Shown here: piece after piece, positions 18-30,882 of the stretch | Layout: each line of letters begins with the position of its first letter | How positions within the stretch are numbered: position 1 is the first letter of the stretch | DNA from: Pseudomonas promysalinigenes | GTDB lineage: Bacteria; Pseudomonadota; Gammaproteobacteria; Pseudomonadales; Pseudomonadaceae | NCBI RefSeq assembly: GCF_014269025.2 | Contig: NZ_CP077094.1 | Location: forward strand, 4,154,001-4,218,000 | Direction of reading: 5' to 3' | Length of the DNA: 64,000 bases | The notes under the pieces: generated by a model | Database searches by the model: none | Seen by the model: the letters and a program-made list of their open reading frames with translations, nothing else | What the model was told of the DNA's origin: nothing | Program-made: the position numbers and the translations under genes

Positions 18-953
18 TTACTCCTCTGCACCGGCAGCTGGTTGCGCACTCGACTCGGTGGTGGCCAGATCTTTGCTGCCTGCTTCTTCGTGGCTCGGAC
101 GACCGCGGTTCATGCCTTCGTACTTGTCGACGATCAGCTGGAACTGGTCAGGCGAGGCCTCGCCATACAGCGCGACTGGGTTGTTTTCGCTTGGTTTGGC
201 CAAGGCGTCGTAGGTGGCCTTGTCCAGCTTCTTCGGCGACTGCTTGACCTCGGCGACCCACTTGTCGAAGTCTTCCTGAGAGGTGGCAGTGGCCTTGAAT
301 TTCATGCCGGTGAAGCCGGCGCCGCTGTAGTTGGCGCTGATACCGTCGAATTCGCCGTTCTCGTTGGCGATCAGGTGCAGCTTGGTGGTCATGCCCGCCA
401 TGGCGTAGATCTGACCGCCCAGGCCCGGGATGAAGAACGAGTTCATCACGGCGTCGGAGGTGACGCGGAAGTTGACCGGGGTGTTAGCCGGGAAGACGAT
501 CTTGTTGACCGTAGCGATGCCCTGCTCCGGGTAGATGAACAGCCACTTCCAGTCCAGCGCGACCACGTCGATCTGCAATGGCTTCACATCGGAATCCAGT
601 GGGCGATACGGGTCCAGCTTGTGGGTGGACTTGTAGGTCACGTAGCCCAGGGCAATGATGATGATGATCGGGATGATCCACACCGCAGCTTCGATCTTGG
701 TCGAGTGCGACCAGTCGGGGGTGTAGGTGGCGGCCTTGTTCGAAGCACGGTACTTCCAGGCGAACGCCACGGTCATGATGATGACCGGAATCACCACCAG
801 CAGCATCAGGCCAGTAGCGATCAGGATCAGGTTCTTTTGCTCAATGCCGACCTGACCTTTCGGGTCGAGCAGGGTCCAGTTGCACCCACTGAGTAAAAGC
901 ATGCCTAAAAAGGGCAATATGCCAAACAGTCTGGGGTAACGCTTTTTACTCAT
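18..953 (-). CDS. cyoA: Cytochrome o ubiquinol oxidase subunit II (lipoprotein)
   Basis: Subunit II of the bo3-type ubiquinol oxidase, a proton-pumping terminal oxidase of the inner membrane. The 311-residue product starts [10 protein letters not shown] and has a lipoprotein signal with lipobox LSGC (Cys24). Two membrane segments follow (about 42-64 and 88-107), then a periplasmic cupredoxin-like domain (about 125-230, with the [13 protein letters not shown] stretch). As expected for quinol rather than cytochrome c oxidases, the CuA ligands are not evident. A Ser/Pro/Ala-rich C-terminal tail extends past the conserved COX_ARM region. It is the first gene of the cyo operon and is followed after three bases by cyoB. 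The family assignment is secure. Confidence 0.96.
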
Positions 954-26328: not shown

Positions 26329-26487
26329 TCAGCGCTTGCACTGAGCGCGAGTTTGGCAGCTTTCGTCAGCCTGAGCGCGCTCTCTTGCTGGTGCTTTCAA
26401 TGCCTCCTGTTTCCAGGCTGGCCATTGTTCGACTTTCTTTCTGCAATCATCCAGATAGCGAAGAAATTCCTGTTTAGCGCCACTCAT
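26329..26487 (-). CDS. Small 52-residue protein overlapping the deaminase gene
   Basis: I do not recognise this protein. It reads MSGAKQEFLRYLDDCRKK at the start and ends ESCQTRAQCKR. It is charged, mostly helical by composition, has a WPAWKQEAL segment (about 22-30) and three cysteines, and no membrane segment. A strong ribosome site AAGGAG stands eight bases before the ATG. The ORF begins 14 bases inside the 3' end of the deaminase gene, and a terminator follows its stop. So it is very probably translated and co-transcribed with the deaminase. A role as regulator or partner of the deaminase is inference from position only. Confidence 0.72.
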   Translation of the reverse strand: MSGAKQEFLRYLDDCRKKVEQWPAWKQEALKAPARERAQADESCQTRAQCKR

Positions 26488-28231
26488 CGGGTTTCTCCTT
26501 CAAGTATGTTGACAGCATAGTGCTTGCTATGGCTTCTCGCTCGATATACGAACATGGCAACATTTGGGTGCGCAATTTAGCATCTGCTTCACGCCAGTCA
26601 ACCACCTGCCCTTCCTCTGTTTTACGTATGACAGGATAGCCACTTCCAAGGTTCGTGGAGAAAAGATCAAAAAAACTGCGTGGTCCTACTCCCATGAATG
26701 GCTCGAAAAAAACACCGTGGTTCGCTTCACACGTAGTGATGGCATCTGAGTGAAACTGCAAAGCCTTACTCTTGGGATAAGGCTCGACATACACAACTCT
26801 TTTTATACCTGCGGCGATAATATGCTTAGCACAGTTATGGCACGGAAAAGTCGTGCAATAGAGTGTACTGCCCAATGGACTGACACCTGTTCGACTCGAA
26901 GATAAAAGAGCTTCCATCTCTGCGTGCACGACCCGACCGTATTCTGTAATGTCTTTAATAGCACTGCTTTTGATCAATGGCGCCAACTCTGCTTTGAGGT
27001 TCTCCGGCACAATCTTGATCAGATGCTCGATGATTGCCTTTTTTTGGGCAGCATTGGAGTCTTCACCTCGCTTGTAGTCCCTGCCGTCCTCAGCGTCAGC
27101 TATTTCATGGGCAGCGTTCTTTTCTGGCCAATAGAGTCCACCGCCAAAGCGAGGAACGTCATTTGCACCAGTGGCAACAATACAGTGATCCTTGGCAATC
27201 ACTGCTCCTACTTGACGAGATAGATCGGCCGAGCGCAACGAAGCAGAAAAGGCCATGAACATGGCGTACTCATCGAATGTAGGCGTGACGTACGGCTTCC
27301 CAAACAGAAGGTCCAATACTCGCCAAACCTGCTTCTTCAGCGCATCATGATTACCGTCATAGCTGACAAAAAAGTCAGATAGATGATACGTATCCCGAGT
27401 ATGCTGGCCGAATTCTTCTTTTTCGTTTTCGTCACGGGAAATAAGATTAGCGACCTGCGCCTCGCTCAACCGGAGGTCCTTGACCAAATACTCGTGCCGA
27501 CGATCATAATCGGCATGCACGCCGACCAGGAAGAACCCCCCAGCATAAATTTTCCTCAGTCGCTGAACTTCATGAGGGCTCTTTAGTGAATTAACAATGT
27601 AAGCATTACGCCGCGGCGCATGCTCAGCACGCAGTTTACCGATAACAGCAGCTGCCCCTAACGCTAGCACAGAATTATCGCGACATTCTTTCCTAAGCCT
27701 ATTACCTTCAGCCATGAACTTATCGATACGATCGTACTCATTATCGACGACCGGTTCCTCGCCCAACATGGCAATAACATCCGAAGAAATTTTTATCTGC
27801 CGTGCACTATAGGAAAAAGCCTTCAAACGTTCCTCAATCAACTGGCACACGGCCCGCAAATCAGTACCTATAGAACCGACCAAACCGATCACAAGTTCAG
27901 AATCCGAATAGGAATCATCCAGAAATGAAGAGTGTAAACCACCCACGTCCGTCGAAAGGTTTCTAATAGTATCACCTGCGGAGCTTGCCAACCCACCAGA
28001 GTAGGGAGCCTCGCTCTGGTTCAAAATACTCGAAATCAACCCTTCAAGTTCATCAGCAGCTGAGGGCTTACCTTGGAAAGTCATATTGCGTGTGCTTGGA
28101 TACCAATTCATCACCCCGCCGCTATTCGATTTGAACTGGTACTGATTAGGGTTCAGCGTTTTCCAGACTCCTGCAGAGTCAAGCCGTGTCAGTTTATCCC
28201 TGAGCTCCTGGTAACTCCCTTCGAAACGCAT
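26474..28231 (-). CDS. Antiphage dCTP/dCMP deaminase-type protein with extra N-terminal domain
   Basis: Likely a nucleotide-depleting defence enzyme of the AvcD/DcdV kind, which deaminates deoxycytidine nucleotides during phage infection. The 585-residue product has three parts. Residues 1-68 form a small domain (YQFKSNSGGVMNWYPS, TFQGKP) resembling TBP-like RNase HIII N-terminal folds by eye. Residues 112-320 form a P-loop kinase-like domain whose Walker A is replaced by GLVGSIGTD. Residues 320-585 form a zinc deaminase with HAE (436-438) and PCxxC (463-467). AAGGAG precedes the ATG. The DNA is visibly richer in AT than its neighbours, suggesting transfer. Deaminase membership is sure; defence function is inferred from the family. 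Confidence 0.85.
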   Translation of the reverse strand: MRFEGSYQELRDKLTRLDSAGVWKTLNPNQYQFKSNSGGVMNWYPSTRNMTFQGKPSAADELEGLISSILNQSEAPYSGGLASSAGDTIRNLSTDVGGLHSSFLDDSYSDSELVIGLVGSIGTDLRAVCQLIEERLKAFSYSARQIKISSDVIAMLGEEPVVDNEYDRIDKFMAEGNRLRKECRDNSVLALGAAAVIGKLRAEHAPRRNAYIVNSLKSPHEVQRLRKIYAGGFFLVGVHADYDRRHEYLVKDLRLSEAQVANLISRDENEKEEFGQHTRDTYHLSDFFVSYDGNHDALKKQVWRVLDLLFGKPYVTPTFDEYAMFMAFSASLRSADLSRQVGAVIAKDHCIVATGANDVPRFGGGLYWPEKNAAHEIADAEDGRDYKRGEDSNAAQKKAIIEHLIKIVPENLKAELAPLIKSSAIKDITEYGRVVHAEMEALLSSSRTGVSPLGSTLYCTTFPCHNCAKHIIAAGIKRVVYVEPYPKSKALQFHSDAITTCEANHGVFFEPFMGVGPRSFFDLFSTNLGSGYPVIRKTEEGQVVDWREADAKLRTQMLPCSYIEREAIASTMLSTYLKEKPDEWR

Positions 28232-29543: not shown

Positions 29544-29795
29544 TCATGTGCGGTGATCGAGGCCGATTTCCATGTCATTGATCAGCGCCTTGGCCATGGC
29601 GCTGAGAATCCGCGCTGCACTGCCTGCGATCAAATTGCCCTCCATCTCCGCCTCTTCGCTCAAGTGGCGGATGCAACCTAACAAGACCGACAACTCATTG
29701 AACGCATGATCGAGCGGGATGCCCGGCTGGATGGCATACAAATCGAGAAAGGTTTCTTTACCGGCTGTGCTGCGCAACTTCAGTTCATTGCTCAT
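29544..29795 (-). CDS. DUF3077-family small protein
   Basis: An 83-residue protein of a family common in Pseudomonas and of unknown function. The FxVxxGxPLxxAxxxLSxLLxxxxHLxxE pattern is visible (DLYAIQPGIPLDHAFNELSV, then CIRHLSEEAEME). AGGAGGT stands five bases before the ATG. The start lies 11 bases inside the upstream DUF6124-like gene, and the two form one unit behind a structured leader. Confidence 0.82.
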   Translation of the reverse strand: MSNELKLRSTAGKETFLDLYAIQPGIPLDHAFNELSVLLGCIRHLSEEAEMEGNLIAGSAARILSAMAKALINDMEIGLDHRT

Positions 29796-30042
29796 GGGGC
29801 ACCTCCTGCAATGCCATATGGGCGAACAGGGTACGCAGCAATTCGGTGAGGATACCGATGTTCACCAACAGGACTTCGCGGTGGACCTCGGCCTCGGTTT
29901 CTAGCAGGAGTTGGATATTGCTCGATAGGCTGTCCATAAGAGCCGCAGCGTGGGGTTTGGCGTCTTCGAAGGTCAGGTCGGCGATGATTGTGATGTACGG
30001 GATAGGGGATGTGGGCGGGGGGTCGGGGACTATTTTTTTCAT
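29785..30042 (-). CDS. DUF6124-like small protein
   Basis: An 85-residue protein beginning MKKIVPDPPP, the proline-rich start typical of DUF6124, followed by helical segments (about 28-80). Function unknown. Members are usually somewhat longer and often sit beside DUF3077 genes, as here. AGGAAAG stands five bases before the ATG. Its 5' leader (about 150 bases) holds a strongly structured element, so regulation at RNA level is possible. Confidence 0.72.
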   Translation of the reverse strand: MKKIVPDPPPTSPIPYITIIADLTFEDAKPHAAALMDSLSSNIQLLLETEAEVHREVLLVNIGILTELLRTLFAHMALQEVPHEQ

Positions 30043-30085
30043 GACGACTTTCCTGAAATTGCTGATGGAAAGCGACCACCGGAGC

Positions 30086-30179
30086 TCTTCTCACGGATTG
30101 GGTGGCAGCCGTACGCGAGGTGAGAAGACCGCGTCCAGGAACCGCGGCCCGGACCAAAGTCCGCACGCGCACGGCTGCC
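30086..30179 (-). ncRNA. Structured leader RNA upstream of the DUF6124/DUF3077 genes
   Basis: On the minus strand, P1 pairs 30166-30179 with 30104-30117 (14 bp, GGCAGCCGT with ACGGCTGCC extended by CGCG). It closes P2 (CGGAC/GTCCG, 30150-30163, loop UUUG) and P3 (CCGCG/CGCGG, 30129-30147). The adjoining UCUUCUCAC (30128-30120) is fully complementary to GUGAGAAGA (30094-30086) beyond P1, giving pseudoknot topology. One P1 pair (30113/30170) is G-U on this strand but A-C on the other, so the minus-strand transcript is the likely folded form. I do not recognise the motif. Confidence 0.6.
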
Positions 30180-30199
30180 ATTAATGATGGCATTCCCGG

Positions 30200-30205
30200 A
30201 TATAG
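30200..30205 (-). promoter_or_regulatory. Candidate -10 for the structured leader
   Basis: CTATAT on the minus strand would start RNA near 30193, about 14 bases before helix P1, and give a leader of about 150 bases. No clear -35 is seen. A 10-bp sequence (CTTCTCACGG on the plus strand) occurs both here (30212-30221) and in the leader (30087-30096). Confidence 0.35.
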
Positions 30206-30299
30206 CCGCAGCTTCTCACGGCCGCTCGCCTTCTGTGGCGAACCGCGAAATTACCGCTGAAGCAGTTCCCCGACTATCAGACGCCATCCGACTCGGGGC

Positions 30300-30362
30300 G
30301 TAGGATAATTCGTCACCCCTGGACTACTGAAGCATTTGGTTTCAGATTCAGAATTCTCCTAC
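30300..30362. repeat. 63-bp inverted-repeat element
   Basis: GTAGGATAATTC (30300-30311) and GAATTCTCCTAC (30351-30362) are complementary at 11 of 12 positions. A separate CCCCGA/TCGGGG hairpin (30268-30298) adjoins it. I do not recognise it; it is non-coding and lies 21 bases before the left target repeat of the fold-back element. Confidence 0.5.
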
Positions 30363-30435
30363 AACCAATCGCAAAAAAGCCCCAATCTGTCACTAGTGCT
30401 GTTCACTTGAGCATTTGAGTCCAGGCTTGGGGTCG

Positions 30436-30471
30436 AAAAATCCGATACCAATGATTTGATGTCGGATTTTT
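30436..30471. terminator. Bidirectional terminator-like hairpin inside the element
   Basis: AAAAATCCGA (30436-30445) pairs with TCGGATTTTT (30462-30471) around a 16-base loop, with a further T run. It would stop transcription in either direction. Confidence 0.65.
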
Positions 30472-30505
30472 TTGGGGTTCAATTTGAGCCTTTTAGCGCC
30501 TGTGA

Positions 30506-30726
30506 GATCGAGCGCCGCCCGCGGCGCATCGCGAGCTGCGCTCGCTCCTACGTTTGTTTCGGGCCAGTAACGCCTGTGGCAGGTGCGCGCGACCGCCTTG
30601 TTTGTACGACGCGATATTGCGTCATGCGCCAAGGCGTTCGCGCGCAAATCCCGCAGGCATAATTGGCCCGAAACAAACGTAGGAGCGAGCAAAGCTCGCG
30701 ATGCGCCGCGCGGGCGGCGCTCGATC
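30506..30726. repeat. Pair of inverted REP-like units
   Basis: A unit of about 61 bp (30506-30566) recurs inverted at 30664-30726, differing by a 2-base indel and a few substitutions. It contains the Pseudomonas-type GCTCGCTCCTACG motif. The inverted symmetry continues weakly inward to a central hairpin (CGCCTTG 30594-30600 with CAAGGCG 30630-30636), so the whole element is close to one large palindrome. Confidence 0.85.
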
Positions 30727-30882
30727 TACGCTCCACCGAAAAACTCACGCCGAGCCTCTAGGCTTAAGTGAACAGCATTACAATCTGTCACCGCTGTCAG
30801 CCAGCCGTCACGCTGCCGACCCGCTCTGCGCGCTATAACTCCACTACAACTCTTCGTCCCCCTGGCCCAGGTGCCCGCGCCG

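Follow-up and report, generated by a model that had tools for sequence, protein, structure and literature searches.

The 64,000-nucleotide stretch of the Pseudomonas promysalinigenes chromosome analysed here (hereafter the window) carries on its minus strand two small overlapping genes behind a structured leader, and the question raised by this locus is what RNA the leader encodes and how that RNA could act on the two genes. An earlier note, made from the letters alone, had taken the leader for a regulatory or compact RNA of the two-gene transcript, with the minus strand as the functional one, and knew no named family that fitted. The first part of this reading was right, but a family does fit: an Rfam scan of the whole 64-kb window at gathering scores returned a single match, the C4 antisense RNA (RF01695), at 30098-30185 of the minus strand, which spans the full model (1-87) and scores 63.2 bits against a gathering score of 45 (E = 6.8e-10 for the whole window). 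The minus-strand fold contained a helix around two hairpins, as the note had described. The helix, P1, measures 15 bp rather than the 14 bp counted earlier; its 5' arm UGGCAGCCGUGCGCG (30166-30180) pairs with its 3' arm CGCGUACGGCUGCCA (30103-30117), and one pair is indeed the G-U pair that had been pointed out on this strand. Inside P1 lie the hairpins P2 (30150-30163) and P3 (30129-30147), the latter with the antisense segment b' in its loop. The predicted fold energy was -53.3 kcal/mol, compared with -42.3 +/- 3.7 kcal/mol for dinucleotide shuffles (z = -2.95), and 1 of 200 shuffles was at least as stable. A putative processing context, read from the sequence only, consists of GGC at the 5' end of P1 and ACCC past its 3' end. 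Taken singly, the window locus is an ordinary representative of C4, an RNA family already known.

We searched the leader for the target sites of this RNA, and all elements found lie on the minus strand. The a' segment UCUUCUCAC (30120-30128), located between P3 and the 3' arm of P1, is complementary at 9/9 positions to the a2 site GUGAGAAGA (30086-30094), with an 8-mer duplex of -10.1 kcal/mol, and at 8/8 positions to an upstream copy, a1 (GUGAGAAG, 30212-30219). The b' segment UUCCUGGA (30134-30141) in the P3 loop forms eight pairs, one of them G-U, with the b2 site UUCAGGAA (30050-30057), which overlaps the Shine-Dalgarno region of ORF1 (isolated duplex about -10.0 kcal/mol), and likewise eight pairs with one G-U with an upstream copy, b1 (UCCGGGAA, 30193-30200). 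The b'/b2 match of the window is short, with six perfect pairs and eight when the G-U pair is counted. The leader thus reads a1-b1-C4-a2-b2-ORF1-ORF2. The a2 site is the 9-base segment outside the helix whose perfect complementarity, in the order a-b-a'-b', the earlier note had reported correctly; the complementarity of the P3 loop to the Shine-Dalgarno region and the second set of targets upstream had been overlooked. The complementarity behind the deduced pseudoknot topology holds; since a' also matches a1 upstream, as in phage P1, a'/a2 is more likely an antisense-target pair than a cis pseudoknot. Folding prediction also places the window's Shine-Dalgarno region within a local hairpin, whether the C4 part is present or absent, so the C4 RNA is perhaps not its sole mask.

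In phages P1 and P7, C4 is known as an antisense RNA by which synthesis of the antirepressor is blocked (available passages of PMC12197685, PMC8546580 and PMC5320573). Weinberg et al. (2010) described the c4 antisense RNA in Proteobacteria and phages and the c4-a1b1 element in gamma-Proteobacteria and phages (PMC2864571, in part), and are quoted in a passage of PMC5320573 as having predicted C4 in Pseudomonadales. The P1 record is annotated in the order a1, b1, c4, a2, b2, icd, ant1, with ant1 and icd overlapping by 4 nt, and the script used for the window recovered the a' and b' pairings of P1 when run on the P1 C4. The window resembles the immI region of P1, the only phage compared, in its covariance model, three-helix fold and a'/b' positions, in the a1/b1 and a2/b2 sites flanking the RNA, in b2 at the ribosome-binding region, and in two overlapping ORFs. 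Unlike P1 immI, it lies on a bacterial chromosome, and its targets are DUF6124-like and DUF3077 genes rather than icd and ant. It shares with c4-a1b1 (RF03163) the upstream a1/b1 target set; no part of window 29950-30500 matched RF03163 itself at E up to 1, even though a1 and b1 there are complementary to a' and b', and of the 60 DUF6124-like loci scanned three exceeded its cut-off (L051, L078 and L093).

ORF1 (29785-30042, minus strand, 85 aa), at the icd position of P1, has its start codon 7 nt past b2, and ORF2 (29544-29795, minus strand, 83 aa), at the ant position, overlaps it by 11 bases. The earlier note had named the two genes DUF6124 and DUF3077. Pfam bore out DUF3077 for ORF2 (PF11275, 35.6 bits versus 21); ORF1 had no Pfam match at E up to 0.1, and its DUF6124 relationship comes from profile comparison of its family with DUF6124-type targets (98.1%, E = 7.5e-14; comparison set A7, 19 sequences chosen by eye among C4 targets). 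The two protein families also show a distant relationship by hhalign (91.9%, E = 7e-7). The dN/dS ratio was 0.11-0.15 for ORF1 against three near relatives and 0.08-0.12 for ORF2 against two relatives; by this measure both ORFs are under purifying selection. Both proteins were predicted as helical hairpins (mean pLDDT 85.0 for ORF1; model pLDDT 92.9 for ORF2), and neither model had a PDB match at E <= 0.001. ORF2 matched phrog_36471 (E = 2.7e-9), a family of phage proteins without an assigned function. In the phage collection, two DUF3077 proteins had no match, and one phage record contained a DUF6124-type gene, at the record's edge. No antirepressor family was matched by the DUF6124-like and DUF3077 proteins in the libraries searched.

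The pairings were examined in paralogous C4 loci by comparing each C4 with its own leader and with swapped leaders. Of the 52 C4s over cut-off in a same-genus genome with many copies (G049), 47 had perfect 7-mer complementarity for a'/a2, where swapped leaders would give 1.9; the figure was 48 for a'/a1 (2.4 expected), 37 for b'/b2 (0.9 expected) and 23 for b'/b1 (1.5 expected). Similar results were obtained with 28 loci from other same-genus genomes, one per genome (30 fetched, minus one cut by a contig end and one already counted in G049): 27, 27, 23 and 16 of 28 loci matched for a'/a2, a'/a1, b'/b2 and b'/b1, against 5.1, 3.9, 2.7 and 2.0 expected. Among the six loci of the window's own genome (G000), a'/a2 and a'/a1 each matched in 5/6, b'/b2 in 3/6 and b'/b1 in 2/6, with swapped expectations of 0.8, 0.6, 0.0 and 0.4. 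For the window plus 60 DUF6124-like loci, b'/b2 matched in 29/61 versus 1.3, and a'/a2 in 59/61 versus 38.3, a' being near uniform in this set. Outside the genus, the excess held for all four pairings in 18 loci plus P1, and for each pairing 0 of 2000 permutations, which ignore the relatedness of loci, reached the observed mean. The narrowed target windows were taken from positions found in an unrestricted search and are therefore post hoc, and the swapped controls share them. Two close relatives of the window locus (L038 and L039; ORF1 identity 81% and 78%) have b' and b2 recoded together, as we read the alignment.

Compensatory changes among homologous leaders, which the earlier note had named as the check on its fold, were present in an alignment of 57 loci. 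Over the whole structure, 89.8% of cells paired, compared with at most 41.3% when registers were slid by 1-3 columns. Pairing reached 96.9% of cells in P1, with both-sided changes in 10 of 15 pairs, and 97.0% in P2, with both-sided changes in 5/5 pairs, one of which changed in only 2 of 57 sequences. P3, whose columns align poorly, had 66.0% of cells paired and both-sided changes in 2/5 pairs. The a'/a2 helix, in a register picked after viewing the alignment, had 87.4% of cells paired and both-sided changes in 6/7 pairs; the row of the window itself is one column out in this alignment and was scored as mismatched. Shuffles reached the observed value in 1 of 500 cases for the both-sided-change measure and in 0 of 500 for the other four measures. 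These comparisons at the sequence level indicate that the pairings of a' and b' with their target sites are selected.

Where the transcript begins bears on how the RNA would arise. The -10-like CTATAT that had been noted just before the fold is present at 30200-30205, and as a promoter candidate it was rejected, not being conserved in an alignment of nine related leaders. A promoter-like element, GAATTATCCTAC (30300-30311, minus strand), conserved in leaders, is the likely -10 region. When up to one mismatch was allowed, its segment TATCCTAC (30300-30307) was recovered from 59 of the 61 leaders in the window's set, at about -111 to -140 from C4, and from ~6% of shuffled leaders; in G049 it was found in only 2 of 51 leaders, several of which have another common sequence there. 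A further conserved block at 30328-30364 (minus strand), seen in the alignment of nine leaders, is a possible -35 or operator region. Because CTATAT is unconserved and TATCCTAC is conserved, we do not expect transcription to begin near 30193, and the 5' end of the C4 RNA should come from processing.

We conclude that the window locus is very probably a chromosomal C4 module of the same type as immI in phage P1, in which C4 would be cut from the leader and block the translation of its own operon. By analogy with P1, a promoter about 120 nt upstream would produce a single transcript, a1-b1-C4-a2-b2-ORF1-ORF2, from which the C4 part, once folded, would be excised, with RNase P acting at its 5' end as in P1 and Acinetobacter baumannii. 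On the mRNA of its own operon, the freed C4 would pair by its a' segment with a2 and by its b' segment with b2 and mask the Shine-Dalgarno region of ORF1. Translation of ORF1 would be blocked and, since the ORFs overlap, that of ORF2 (DUF3077) probably as well, through translational coupling. Transcription of the operon would thus itself supply, as a by-product, the RNA that keeps it off, and in most loci the P3 loop carries an address specific to the locus.

We investigated how widely this arrangement occurs. C4 was detected in 54 of the 59 same-genus genomes, the window's included, 53 of which had a match over the cut-off. Up to 54 copies were found per genome, and a closer search of G049 gave 55, with 52 over cut-off. 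Across the class, C4 was found in 18 of 274 genomes, with at most 15 candidates scored per genome, so that the counts are lower bounds, and DUF3077 and DUF6124 were each found in 1 of 274, the window's own genome. The 61 loci with ORF1 relatives are all titled Pseudomonas, and a C4 lies directly upstream in all 60 DUF6124-like loci scanned with Rfam models (L097 fell outside the scan). In G000, all six C4s have on their own strand a DUF3077 gene that by comparison of coordinates lies 350-480 nt further downstream, and a C4 stood at 6 of the 7 DUF3077 matches. In G049, C4 was located within 900 nt upstream of 35 of 41 DUF6124 and 5 of 6 DUF3077 matches, and 40 of the 55 C4s were followed by a DUF6124 or DUF3077 gene. 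At E up to 0.5, no C4 was found in five of the six C4-less DUF6124 places of G049 or at the seventh DUF3077 of G000. Among the C4 targets scanned in same-genus genomes, 31 of 50 and 9 of 24 matched Pfam DUF6124, and 3 of 50 and 3 of 24 were Bro-N antirepressor-like; these scans exclude 11 of 55 targets in G049 and 5 of 29 in other same-genus genomes, which had no clean or full ORF or lay on a cut contig. The Bro-N-like targets link the chromosomal C4 set to phage immunity regions.

In contrast to P1 and P7, several to many paralogous C4 copies with differing addresses stand here in one genome. The Group 1 sRNAs of A. baumannii (21 C4-like RNAs) are likewise multi-copy and chromosomal, and RNA-seq shows their processing at the GG motif, GG motifs marking the C4 cut in both P1/P7 and A. 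baumannii (PMC5320573, in the passages available). Their targets are unnamed in those passages, whereas every C4 examined here has a candidate target within the leader it belongs to and a defined family of genes downstream. For the C4-like RNAs of Acinetobacter, the leader downstream of each RNA itself is accordingly a suggested place to look for targets. Among literature titles and abstract openings, with subscription journals mostly outside the search, none dealt with C4 together with DUF6124 or DUF3077 or with private Pseudomonas C4 codes; the portions of text searched contained no mention of DUF6124 and one of DUF3077, and an excerpt of PMC9630843 mentions C4 or DUF3077. The linkage to DUF6124-like genes, the multi-copy C4s in Pseudomonas and the matching to the own leader look new.

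What the two proteins do bears on a second reading, which is compatible with the C4 mechanism: the locus could be an addiction module resembling type I toxin-antitoxin systems, with C4 as an RNA antitoxin against small proteins that do harm when made. Small ORFs under an antisense RNA would suit such a module, the annotation of P1 describes its first ORF as a cell-division inhibitor, the multi-copy distribution is uneven, and anti-phage genes lie near two loci. In classical type I systems, the RNA and its target have separate promoters, whereas C4 and its target are on one transcript, the RNA being inside the leader of its target, and PADLOC gave no match for the eight target proteins scanned. 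We consider this reading doubtful, though it deserves to be kept in mind.

A leader acting only in cis, as the earlier note had it, would use the a'/a2 pseudoknot to control access to ORF1 in the manner of a riboswitch or attenuator and release no free antisense RNA. The a' and a2 segments are perfectly complementary, near each other in sequence and covarying, and complementarity of this kind is compatible with a cis structure. Against it stand the second set of sites, a1/b1, upstream, as one molecule cannot use both sets at once; the 8 nt from the end of the P1 helix to a2, which we estimate to be short for spanning a 15-bp helix; and the founding C4, which is a processed, trans-acting RNA (available passages of PMC5320573 and PMC8546580). 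A cis-only leader is improbable.

If each C4 acts on its own operon, as the C4 mechanism proposes, the codes of paralogs should be considered against each other. When the a'/a2 and b'/b2 scores were summed, the own leader was the unique best in 45/52 cases in G049 and in 6/6 in G000. Off-target combinations of C4 and leader scored at least as high as the own one in 50 of 2652 cases in G049, and the locus-ordered listing implies that ~40 of these 50 come from one weak locus, L148. An unrestricted target search (anywhere in 75 nt, downstream sum), which placed the own leader first in 17/52 cases in G049 and 4/6 in G000, was set aside. All 52 loop segments of G049 are distinct, and there are 41 different a' segments. 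In 42 paralog pairs with protein identity of at least 85%, the identity of the b' loop was 0.53, compared with 0.51 in 300 random pairs; in the same 42 pairs it was 0.69 for a', 0.67 for four-fold sites and 0.76 for the stems. The identity of b' was below that of four-fold sites in 33 of these 42 pairs and in 41 of 57 pairs at >= 70%, with the caveats that the pairs are non-independent, the loops were gap-aligned, and such a pattern would also arise from gene conversion within the coding sequence. Among similar duplicates, the b' code thus appears to diverge faster than synonymous sites, as if selected against cross-talk.

These figures bear directly on a network in trans, in which C4s would mainly repress paralogous operons or other bacterial or phage mRNAs, an action on such targets having been suggested for A. 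baumannii (PMC5320573, in part). The 50 off-target combinations of G049, mostly from L148, would fit such a network, as would a DUF6124 gene without C4 (L172) that keeps an a1/b1-like element at 1201-1254 (RF03163, 41.8 bits, below the 46.7 cut-off) and is possibly a trans target of another C4. The own leader was uniquely best for 45/52 and 6/6 C4s, in a comparison covering leaders only, and the network reading seems to us slightly more improbable still. The least probable reading, that the loci are decayed remnants of P1-like immunity regions in prophages with no present role, would account for the phage origin of C4, the Bro-N-like targets at some loci, the phrog_36471 match of ORF2 and the ORF1 copies that are truncated, as in L003 (47 aa) and L087 (46 aa), and is hard to reconcile with the low dN/dS of both ORFs, the strong covariation, the 60/60 linkage and the lack of any match for the window's ORF1 among 50,697 phage and 72,556 plasmid records.

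A further element of the leader, c2 (GGUGGUCG, 30073-30080, minus strand), located between a2 and b2, is tentatively proposed, from a family-level test, to pair with CGGCUGCC of the P1 3' arm. In 18 outgroup loci plus P1, the own score was 21.0, compared with 14.4 for shuffled and 17.75 for swapped leaders, and 0/2000 permutations reached it. In G049 (51 loci), the own score was 18.45 versus 17.19 for swapped leaders (0/2000), and in the DUF6124-like set (61 loci) it was 18.57 versus 18.04 (14/2000). The six G000 loci had no such excess (17.83 versus 18.04; 1241/2000). The fold predicted for the whole window leader contains an intact C4; when the leader was cut before a', the fold predicted was a' onto a2, and the c2 hairpin was not predicted. 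Pairing of c2 with the P1 3' arm may give an alternative hairpin incompatible with the C4 fold; since the excess is absent in the six G000 loci and the hairpin is not predicted in the shortened window leader, we keep it as a lead only. In phage P1 (L177), too, the leader has a c2-like element, whose sequence complements the P1 3' arm of the phage's C4.

The part worth following is the chromosome-wide, gene-linked, individually coded C4 family rather than the window locus by itself. For the broadest account, we see the chances as evenly balanced: a phage immunity RNA may have turned into a large addressable family in Pseudomonas, with up to ~50 C4 modules per genome, each over a mostly Pseudomonas-restricted small-protein operon, a nearly orthogonal two-part code of a shared or group a' and a private, fast-diverging b' loop, and c2 as a possible third pairing. 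C4, classic in phages P1 and P7, appears here in the role of a control unit widespread on Pseudomonas chromosomes, its link to DUF6124 and DUF3077, both of unknown function, is a first functional handle on them, and the roughly 50 antisense-target pairs in one cell constitute a natural set for studying the orthogonality of RNA codes.

We also recorded the surroundings of the C4 loci. Downstream of the window's two genes, at 26474-28231 (minus strand) and ~1.3 kb from ORF2, is a gene for an anti-phage dCTP deaminase (PADLOC dCTPase, E = 1.6e-174). Two C4-DUF3077 loci of G000, L003 and L005 (659358 and 669633), are 10 kb apart, and L005 adjoins a retron-type nucleoside deoxyribosyltransferase gene (PADLOC NDT_II-A, E = 1.8e-81). 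C4 loci may favour defence islands. Genes for tmRNA or tRNA, which are common at integration hot spots, lie within ~2 kb of nine C4-DUF6124-like loci (L048, L063-L066, L073, L077, L079 and L090). On the other side of the leader, at 30394-30780, the window contains a 387-bp inverted-repeat element that is MITE- or REP-like, with arms of 81 nt at 88% and outer arms of 19 nt; inside it, at 30436-30471, is a short inverted repeat with A/T runs at its ends that looks terminator-like. By our own count, with 40 of 68 candidates scored, the 387-bp element occurs at more than 200 nt in at least 20 places in the genome. It lies within ~1.2 kb of three C4 loci, namely the window, L003 (657869) and L004 (4687059), where we estimate ~0.1 expected for six loci. 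At L174, a G049 reading frame has DUF6124 and DUF3077 matches at nearly one place, and a PrrF sRNA (289-437, minus strand, 161.6 bits) is located downstream of this frame.
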